Shown here one piece after another: positions 51,898 through 56,394 of a stretch of DNA of 64,000 nt. The stretch is from assembly GCA_021414025.1 (NCBI GenBank), contig JAIOPG010000007.1, forward strand, positions 366,008 to 430,007, written 5' to 3'. Positions within the stretch are counted from its first letter, which is position 1; each line of letters starts with the position of its first letter. Below the pieces are notes generated by a model. The model had not been told where the DNA came from. It saw only the letters and a list, made by a program, of their open reading frames with translations, and made no database searches. Source of the stretch: Planctomycetota bacterium (GTDB lineage: Bacteria; Planctomycetota; Phycisphaerae; Phycisphaerales; SM1A02). The position numbers were made by a program, and so were the translations under genes.

Positions 51898-52896
51898 ATG
51901 CGGATCTATGCGGGCATCGACGAGGCGGGCTACGGGCCCCTGCTCGGGCCGCTGACTGTCGCATGCACGGCGTGGAACACAGAGGAGTCGCTGGGACTCT
52001 GGCCCGACCTGTGGAGCGCTCTCTCGAGCGCCGTGTGCCGGCGACCCAACGACTCCAAGGGCCGCGTGGCGGTCGACGACTCCAAGACGCTCAAGGGTGC
52101 GAAGGCGGCGAAATCCCATCCGCTGCGGAACCTCGAGCGCGGCGTGCTTTCCATGCTCGACGCCATGCAGCGCGAGTCACGTCCGGGGGAAATCGATTTC
52201 TTTCCGCTGAACGAGGGCGATTTCCTGTGCCGCCTCGGCTGCGATCCCGCCGCCGCCCTGCCCTGGCACCGGGAGCAGAATGCAACCCAGCTTCCCGTGG
52301 CGACGCCCAAGGACGACCTGCAGATCACGGCCAACCGCGTGCACCTGGCTTTTGCTCCTTCCGGCGCCCGGCTGGCGCTGATGCGCTGCGTCATCGTGGA
52401 GCCGGAGGAGCTGAACCGACTCTCGAAGATCGCGGGCAGCAAGGCGGCGGTGAACGAGCTGGCCCTGCTGCGGCTGCTGTGCGAGCTGCGCGAAAAATTC
52501 GCCGATGCGGATCTCTGCGTCGCCTGCGACCGACAGGGCGGGCGCACCCGCTACCTCAAGCCGCTGCAGCGGGCCTTTCCCGACGCGGTGGTCCGCATCC
52601 ACGACGAGAGCGACCGCGGCAGCCGCTACGAGCTCTTCGAGGGAAGCCGGCGCATGAGCGTCTCCTTCGAGGTCGACTCGGAGGAGCGCCACCTTCCCGT
52701 CGCGCTGGCCAGCATGACCGCGAAGTACGTCCGCGAGCTGAGCATGGCGCGCTTGAACGCCTACTTCACCCAGCGGATGCCCGGGCTCGCCCCGACCGCG
52801 GGCTATGTCGAGGATGGAAGGCGGTTCCTGGCGAAGATCCGCCCGCATCTGGCCCAATGGGGGGTGGAAACCGATGATTTGGTGCGAAAAATGTGA
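51898..52896 (+). CDS. Divergent, enlarged RNase HII-like protein
   Basis: The 332-residue protein opens with [21 protein letters not shown], the RNase HII entry motif (Asp8, Glu9), and has [13 protein letters not shown] at about 59-71. The remaining two metal ligands can be matched to Asp211 in VACDRQGG and Asp260 in [11 protein letters not shown]. The typical helix [17 protein letters not shown] follows (RNase HII: AASILAKVTRD). All four DEDD residues are thus present. However, about 100 extra residues lie between the second and third sites, and the family is normally 190-260 aa. It may process RNA-DNA hybrids or have a new role. Confidence 0.72.
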
Positions 52897-53079: not shown

Positions 53080-55194
<2,115 letters not shown>

Positions 55195-55212: not shown

Positions 55213-56394
55213 ATGCCGAACCGCACCCTGACCACGAACCCCGCCCATGTGCACATGGGCGGTGATTTGTGGCGTTCCTGGATGAAGACGGCGGCGCGGA
55301 TCGCCCTGCGCGGGCATGGAAATGTCGAGCCCAATCCCATGGTCGGCTGCGTGGTGCTGGACGCCCGCGAGCAGCTGGCCGGCTGGGGTTGCCACCGGAA
55401 GATCGGTGGCGCGCACGCCGAAATCGAGGCCCTGAAGCGGGCCGGCGCCAAGGCCCGCGGCGGGACGGCGATCGTGACGCTTGAGCCCTGCGCGCATTTC
55501 GGGCGGACGCCCCCCTGCGTCGACGCCCTGAGGAATGCCGGCGTGGCCCGCGTGGTCTACGGCGCCGAGGATCCGAATCCCGAGGCCGCCGGCGGCGCCG
55601 CCAAGCTTCGCGAAGCCGGCATCGAGGCCATCCTGCTGCGCTGCCCCGAGTGCGACGAATTGAACGAGCCCTTTCTGAAGCGTGTGCGCACCGGGCTGCC
55701 CTGGGTCCTGGCGAAATGGGCGCAGACCGTGGACGGTTGCGTGGCGACGCGGAACTACGACTCGCAGTGGATTAGCGGCGAGCGCAGCCGGCGCATGGTG
55801 CACCGCGAGCGCGGGCGCGTGGACGCCATCCTGACCGGCATCGGCACCGTCATGCACGACGATCCCCAGCTCACCGCCCGCGGCGTCCGCCTGCGTCGCA
55901 ATGCGATCCGCGTGGTGATTGATCCCGAGCTGGTGCTGCCGCTCACGGCGTCGCTGGTCCGGACGGCGCGCCAGTTCAAGACCGTCGTGGCCACGCTGCC
56001 CAAGTCATTTTCGGAGCGCTCCGAGCACCGCCGCGCTTTGGGCGACCTGGGGGTCGGCTGCATGAAGCAGCACTCGGACTTCCGCGGACTGCTGGCGGCG
56101 CTGCGCAAGGAGTACGGGGTGCACACCGTGCTGGTCGAGGCGGGCGGCGGCCTGACCGGCGAGCTGCTCAAGGAGCGGCTGATCGACGAGGCGTGGGTCT
56201 TTGTCGGCCCGAAAGTGGTCGGGGACCGCGAGGCGATCCACCCCGCGCGCGGCCTTTCGCCGCTGACCATGGATGACGCGATCCCGCTGCGCCTTCTCTC
56301 GGTGCGCCGCCGCGGGCCGGACGCGCTGCTGCACTACCGGTTCGACGATCCGAACATCTCGGGCTCCAGCGGAAACGACATCGTCGCGGGATAG
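55213..56394 (+). CDS. ribD: Riboflavin biosynthesis deaminase/reductase RibD
   Basis: The 393-residue protein has two domains. The N-terminal deaminase has zinc ligands His68, Cys93 and Cys102 and catalytic Glu70 in GGAHAEIEAL and LEPCAHFGRTPPC. The C-terminal reductase (about 160-380) has LAKWAQTVDG, ISGERSRRMVHRERGRVDAILTGIGT and VLVEAGGGLTGELL. It makes 5-amino-6-ribitylaminouracil phosphate. An ATG at 55255 is an alternative start that would still keep the deaminase core. Its 3' end overlaps the convergent DUF4340 gene by 61 nt. Co-transcription with EF-G is unusual. Confidence 0.93.
   Translation: MPNRTLTTNPAHVHMGGDLWRSWMKTAARIALRGHGNVEPNPMVGCVVLDAREQLAGWGCHRKIGGAHAEIEALKRAGAKARGGTAIVTLEPCAHFGRTPPCVDALRNAGVARVVYGAEDPNPEAAGGAAKLREAGIEAILLRCPECDELNEPFLKRVRTGLPWVLAKWAQTVDGCVATRNYDSQWISGERSRRMVHRERGRVDAILTGIGTVMHDDPQLTARGVRLRRNAIRVVIDPELVLPLTASLVRTARQFKTVVATLPKSFSERSEHRRALGDLGVGCMKQHSDFRGLLAALRKEYGVHTVLVEAGGGLTGELLKERLIDEAWVFVGPKVVGDREAIHPARGLSPLTMDDAIPLRLLSVRRRGPDALLHYRFDDPNISGSSGNDIVAG

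Follow-up and report, generated by a model that had tools for sequence, protein, structure and literature searches.

The question raised by this locus is whether an ORF encoding an enlarged RNase HII-like protein supplies its lineage's only RNase HII or a paralogue with a different nucleic-acid substrate. To our knowledge, RNase HII is near-universal in bacteria. A 2007 survey places its one planctomycete in group E, which stands for RNase HI by elimination of the other letters (PMC1950709), and a 2025 study based on KEGG annotation reports rnhB as largely lacking in Planctomycetota (PMC11929135). The gene analysed here lies in a stretch of 64,000 nucleotides (the window), and its product is probably the RNase HII of planctomycetes, a two-metal-ion endonuclease within the RNase HII/HIII superfamily that would be functional as such. 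The enlarged family would then fill the rnhB gap of Planctomycetota. A literature search, with most subscription papers outside its reach, found no published description of the enlarged protein. What is new is a diverged enzyme of the RNase HII type that occurs across the sample of the phylum.

The ORF is genuine, and its product is a member of a conserved family. The reading frame was confirmed together with its N-terminal motif, [14 protein letters not shown], which occupies residues 6-19 of the 332-residue protein. RNase_HII (PF01351) was the sole Pfam family detected on the window protein (P0001) with a score of 44.6 bits (E = 2e-11) against a gathering score of 25.8, and the description "RNase HII-like" is correct at the family level. 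Conservation was analysed in a 74-row alignment that left out L001 and L037 as duplicates and in which the window protein is present as L003. Removal of L074, which has an uncertain start, gave the 73-member A1 profile, and PF01351 was matched by 73/73 of its members at E <= 0.1. A 101-row alignment combined the 74 proteins with 27 from other families of the phylum; the partial L136 was dropped and the cut or deviant L106, L112 and L113 were retained. The window protein missed all of the NCBI RNase HII equivalog cut-offs, scoring 36 bits against 123.3 for TIGR00729 and 33.8 bits against 167 for the best PRK00015-type model, and it failed the curated rnhC/RNase HIII model (TIGR00716) with 18.4 bits against 161.2. 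AlphaFold2 run on a two-sequence alignment only, P0001 plus the homologue L002 that a scan of contigs found in a Phycisphaeraceae MAG (Phycisphaerae, Planctomycetota), gave a mean pLDDT of 41.8.

The original prediction placed a DEDD ligand set at Asp8, Glu9, Asp211 and Asp260. The first three residues are at the stated positions and invariant in 74/74 proteins, and Glu262 takes the place of Asp260 in the proposed set. Column 260 contains Asp in 9/74 and 9/101 rows and is mostly Lys, Gly or Glu. Column 262 contains 51 Glu and 23 Asp in the 74-row alignment, and 64 Glu, 36 Asp and one gap in the 101-row alignment. A PDB profile search aligned the family with human RNase H2A (8yjz_H), and the E262 column falls opposite Asp169 with D260 opposite Lys167. 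Asp260 is rejected as the fourth ligand on its low conservation and on alignment. Positions counted along the same alignment pair D211 with Asp141, residues 61-63 with 67-69, Y12 with Arg38 and P14 with Pro40. The register was identical when the family profile was aligned with that of seven RNase HII proteins from planctomycetes, and this second alignment also pairs Y303 with the GSGYP tyrosine and R330 with the IRQSW arginine. The conservation of E262 and its alignment with human Asp169 point to D8/E9/D211/E262 as the ligand set. The predicted carboxylate set is DEDE as in RNase HIII, and about one family member in three has DEDD instead. The AAS-x-x-AK-like helix had been described as the end of the protein; its counterpart, ALASMTAK, is instead followed by 56 further residues that include TAGY and Arg330 (Table 1).

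Table 1. Position in the window of the enlarged gene, its conserved elements and the ORFs downstream.
Feature	Coordinates	Strand	Remarks
Enlarged RNase HII-type protein	51898..52896	+	332 aa, ATG start
Asp8-Glu9, first two metal-ligand carboxylates (putative role)	51919..51924	+	74/74; opposite human Asp34/Glu35
Gly-Tyr-Gly-Pro (11-14), replaces RNase HII Gly-Arg-Gly-Pro	51928..51939	+	Opposite human Arg38, Pro40
Asp-Ser-Lys (61-63), DSK motif	52078..52086	+	74/74; opposite human 67-69
Main extra segment (about residues 75-155), Pro-Trp-His/Tyr at 122-124	52120..52362	+	Gaps against RNase HII
Asp211, third carboxylate (putative role)	52528..52530	+	74/74, 99/101; opposite human Asp141
Glu262, fourth carboxylate (putative role)	52681..52683	+	E/D 100/101; opposite human Asp169 and RNase HII Asp
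ALASMTAK (269-276), counterpart of AASIxAK	52702..52725	+	S272, K276 in 74/74; profile alignment
TAGY (300-303); Tyr303 matches the tyrosine of RNase HII GSGYP	52795..52806	+	Tyr303 74/74
Arg330, aligned with Arg of RNase HII IRxSW motif	52885..52887	+	74/74
EF-G-like ORF	53080-55194		Downstream of enlarged gene; named by ORF reading
RibD-like ORF	55213-56394		Downstream of enlarged gene; named by ORF reading

The residues invariant in 74/74 proteins are D8, E9, G11, G13, D61-S62-K63, N173, K182, D211, S272, K276, R279, E280, T300, G302, Y303, D306, R309 and R330, a pattern typical of a functional enzyme. A relative that had lost catalysis and served in binding would not be expected to keep D8, E9 and D211 in 74/74 proteins and an acidic residue at 262 in 74/74, and this explanation is highly improbable even though one relative, L112, has Gly for the third catalytic Asp (column 211).

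One departure from the RNase HII motifs is at residue 12. The GRG motif is absent from the window protein, which has GYG instead, and column 12 of the 101-row alignment contains 80 Tyr, 9 Phe, 9 Leu, one Val, one Met, one gap and no Arg. Pro14 is kept in 73/74 and 99/101 proteins. Roles for the human RNase H2A residues were taken from PMC7028304, where the human enzyme is described as acting together with its B and C subunits. The active-site residues of the human A subunit align with those of the enlarged protein, and both contain a similar D..G...Y...L...FP stretch after the third Asp; they differ in Arg38 versus Tyr12 and in Asp169 versus Glu262. The yeast P45D/Y219A double change is reported to lose single-ribonucleotide excision and to keep RNA-strand cleavage (PMC7028304). 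Three retained elements of the enlarged protein, DSK, Pro14 and Tyr303, correspond to RNase H2 residues linked with cleavage at single ribonucleotides. The GSGYP tyrosine of the planctomycete RNase HII L090 lies 30 residues before the last human-aligned residue (240), as does human Tyr210. This spacing agrees with the GSGYP tyrosine being the junction-specificity tyrosine, if the stretch is ungapped.

The DEDE set raises the alternative of an enzyme akin to RNase HIII, with long RNA/DNA hybrids as its main substrate. The carboxylates of T. ammonificans RNase HIII are given as Asp78, Glu79, Asp180 and Glu206, together with a G-x-G motif (PMC4132731), and the enlarged protein has in common with RNase HIII the DEDE carboxylates, a G-x-G without Arg and an Asn-bearing helix start, with local similarity around N173. 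RNase HIII differs in having a TBP-like N-terminal domain; the enlarged protein has none ahead of its core, with GIDEAG starting at residue 6. RNase HIII also has an acidic residue or Ser after G-x-G, whereas the enlarged protein has Pro14 there and Tyr303, as in type 2 enzymes. The global profile alignment was closer to RNase HII (probability 99.3, E = 4.1e-19) than to RNase HIII (probability 98.1, E = 7.9e-13). The enlarged protein also coexists with RNase HIII in 73 genomes and with RNase HI in the window's class, and the HIII-like alternative is improbable.

Relationships within the superfamily were examined in an unrooted tree of 52 proteins, which contains two long-branch rows and several of unusual composition. 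A branch supported at 100/99 separates the 28 enlarged proteins from all others, among them E. coli RNase HII (rnhB, L162), a member of the same superfamily. Support for the other branches was 100/96 for RNase HIII, 92/83 for RNase HII and 100/100 for an odd pair. On this tree, the enlarged family is its own deep branch, apart from RNases HII and HIII. The odd pair consists of L135 (G328) and L137 (G310) of family f64, divergent RNase HII/HIII-like proteins that have GTG for GRG and ETK for DSK; both genomes also carry the enlarged protein.

The size of the protein had been attributed to a single central insertion of roughly 100 residues. The profile alignment with RNase HII instead scatters the surplus over several places: about 20 residues before DSK, a 67-residue gap plus six nearby after DSK, about 14 residues near 185-198 and 21 near 236-256. 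The Pfam search of P0001 found no second domain, the extra segment included. Trp123 is present in 100/101 proteins, and this conservation suggests that the extra segment probably contributes to binding or folding. Ten proteins from other families of the phylum (L102-L105 and L107-L112) are fragments of 265-301 residues with shorter extra segments; Trp123 is retained in these proteins and Trp39 is often lost.

A strongly conserved extra segment, the loss of GRG and a separate tree branch could also describe a superfamily member that is active as a nuclease but on a different substrate, such as R-loops, flaps or a structured nucleic acid, with ribonucleotide excision done otherwise or not at all. 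The 21/294 phylum genomes that have neither the enlarged protein nor RNase HII point the same way. The Pro and Tyr of junction specificity are conserved, and the enlarged protein was found together with RNase HII in none of the phylum sample. Weighed together, these data make another substrate rather unlikely, and a planctomycete RNase HII is the preferred reading.

The preferred reading draws on the distribution of the gene. A homologue was present at E <= 0.001 in 235/248 genomes of the window's class, and 10/235 rows had more than one match. The A1 profile matched 271/294 Planctomycetota genomes. Seven of these matches were weak (E = 3.7e-6 to 7.7e-4), all in genomes that encode a true RNase HII; without them there are 264 strong matches, of which the weakest was 4.7e-11 (G425). 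Strong TIGR00729 matches were found in 9/294 phylum genomes (93 to 221 bits, eight above the cut-off), and these RNase HII genomes (G251, G267, G272, G282, G291, G300, G311, G315 and G349) are spread over eight families. The enlarged protein was absent from all nine. The 294 genomes are divided into 264 with the enlarged protein, nine with RNase HII only, none with both and 21 with neither. Fisher's test of the exclusion gave p = 3.6e-10, a descriptive value only as relatedness is uncontrolled, and the nine RNase HII genomes may represent few independent events. Strong PF01351 matches in 89 phylum genomes had suggested that an ordinary RNase HII stands alongside in other planctomycetes; classification assigned these genomes to RNase HIII (81) and RNase HII (9), with both in G272, and the suggestion was rejected. 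A completeness of at least 90% with no more than 5% contamination was reached by 155 phylum genomes. Two of these, G388 and G400, were without an A1 match, and each has a genus-mate carrying the enlarged protein. A second search of these two and of the well-completed class negatives G024, G030, G093 and G222 found no enlarged protein. The 15 pattern matches in viral contigs included no relative of the enlarged protein, and tblastn gave no match to it in plasmids and phages.

The RNase HII proteins inspected from seven of the nine genomes (L090-L096; all except G267 and G291) are of the archaeal type. With these proteins and the archaeal enzymes (PDB 1io2 and 3p83) the enlarged protein has in common DEAGxG, DSK, the third Asp, a fourth acidic residue, AAS-x-x-AK, GY and the terminal Arg, and the same role is presumed. 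The archaeal-type enzymes differ in their core of about 200 residues, in GRG or GKG and in having Asp as the fourth ligand, and the planctomycete ones occur only in genomes without the enlarged protein.

The original prediction called for a search for a canonical rnhB in the window's genome. PF01351 detected only the enlarged gene in this genome, which is 97.48% complete, and 14/14 control genomes were positive. The rnhC search found no match, and one RNase HI is present. As the sole PF01351 gene here, and with RNase HII alongside in 0/294 phylum genomes, the enlarged protein is better supported as the lineage's only RNase HII than as a paralogue.

In four class genomes PF01351 also matches a place outside the enlarged gene at more than 40 bits. 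One of these, G062, is the only class genome (1/248) with both an intact enlarged protein and RNase HII. Its RNase HII is bacterial-type (L033:1453-2115, 92.5 bits) and located at a phage-like locus, where RNase HII and one neighbour among five ORFs tested match phage protein families; searches of this genome with PF00075 and PF13456 detected no RNase HI. The other three (G084, G209 and G246) belong to one genus of the window's family and encode extra HIII-like proteins below the rnhC cut-off (L034, L035 and L036), in which the C-terminal part is missing from the aligned region. No other RNase HIII was found among the strong matches in the class sample.

The case for a planctomycete RNase HII counts PF01351 in 73/73 members, the residue matches to human RNase H2A and to planctomycete RNase HII, the retained Pro and Tyr, the closer HII profile, the 264/9/0/21 pattern, the single PF01351 gene of the window's genome and the separately filled RNase HI slot. 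The absent GRG arginine, the missed equivalog cut-offs, the low pLDDT of the two-sequence model, the 21/294 genomes with neither protein, the 73 that also have RNase HIII and G062 with both count against it. The sequences show conservation of D8, E9, D211 and E262, of the lysine of DSK, of the helix that comes behind the fourth carboxylate and of Pro14 and Tyr303, and they show the gene in genomes with no recognisable RNase HII. A mechanism is proposed by analogy with known RNases H2 and H3. D8/E9/D211/E262 would bind two Mg ions for two-metal hydrolysis, and Lys63 would touch the scissile phosphate. Tyr303 may stack against the deoxyribose next to the ribonucleotide, with a preference for ribonucleotides that have DNA behind them, and the backbone of the G-Y-G loop may sense the 2'-OH in place of the missing GRG arginine. 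Contacts to the substrate or within the fold may come from the extra segment and its Trp123. The enzyme would most likely nick at RNA-DNA junctions and at single ribonucleotides embedded in DNA, starting ribonucleotide excision repair, and RNase HI or HIII would take care of long hybrids. The enlarged family offers a natural test of ribonucleotide recognition by an RNase H2 without the GRG arginine.

Other RNases H were surveyed as well. RNase HI (PF00075) was found in 124/150 class genomes and PF13456 in 12/16 tested of the 26 PF00075-negative class genomes, showing that the RNase HI slot is filled separately from the enlarged protein. Strong rnhC matches (E <= 4e-25) occur in 81 phylum genomes, 59 of them above the cut-off. 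The enlarged protein is also present in 73 of the 81, and tasks may be shared differently in some of these. Searches of G149, G074 and G097 with PF00075, PF13456 and rnhC found none of these enzymes. Each has one weak PF01351 match, taken as the enlarged protein, which would be their sole RNase H if nothing was missed; G149 is 99% complete in 2 contigs. More would be demanded of the enlarged protein in these three genomes than of RNase HII. A bolder reading, which we consider less likely than not, is that the family is a fourth RNase H lineage beside HI, HII and HIII, characteristic of Planctomycetota, with no GRG arginine, a PWY-bearing grip and the role of sole RNase H in some genomes such as G149. 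If so, the enlarged protein in G149-like genomes would serve both ribonucleotide excision and hybrid removal.

Gene neighbourhoods were compared in 22 regions with names assigned by ORF reading. No neighbour recurs across the phylum, and none pointed to replication or repair. The recurring neighbours are fusA-like (7), ribD-like (9) and aldolase-like (5) genes, all confined to the window's family or order. The order of the enlarged gene, the EF-G-like ORF and the RibD-like ORF recurs in close relatives only.
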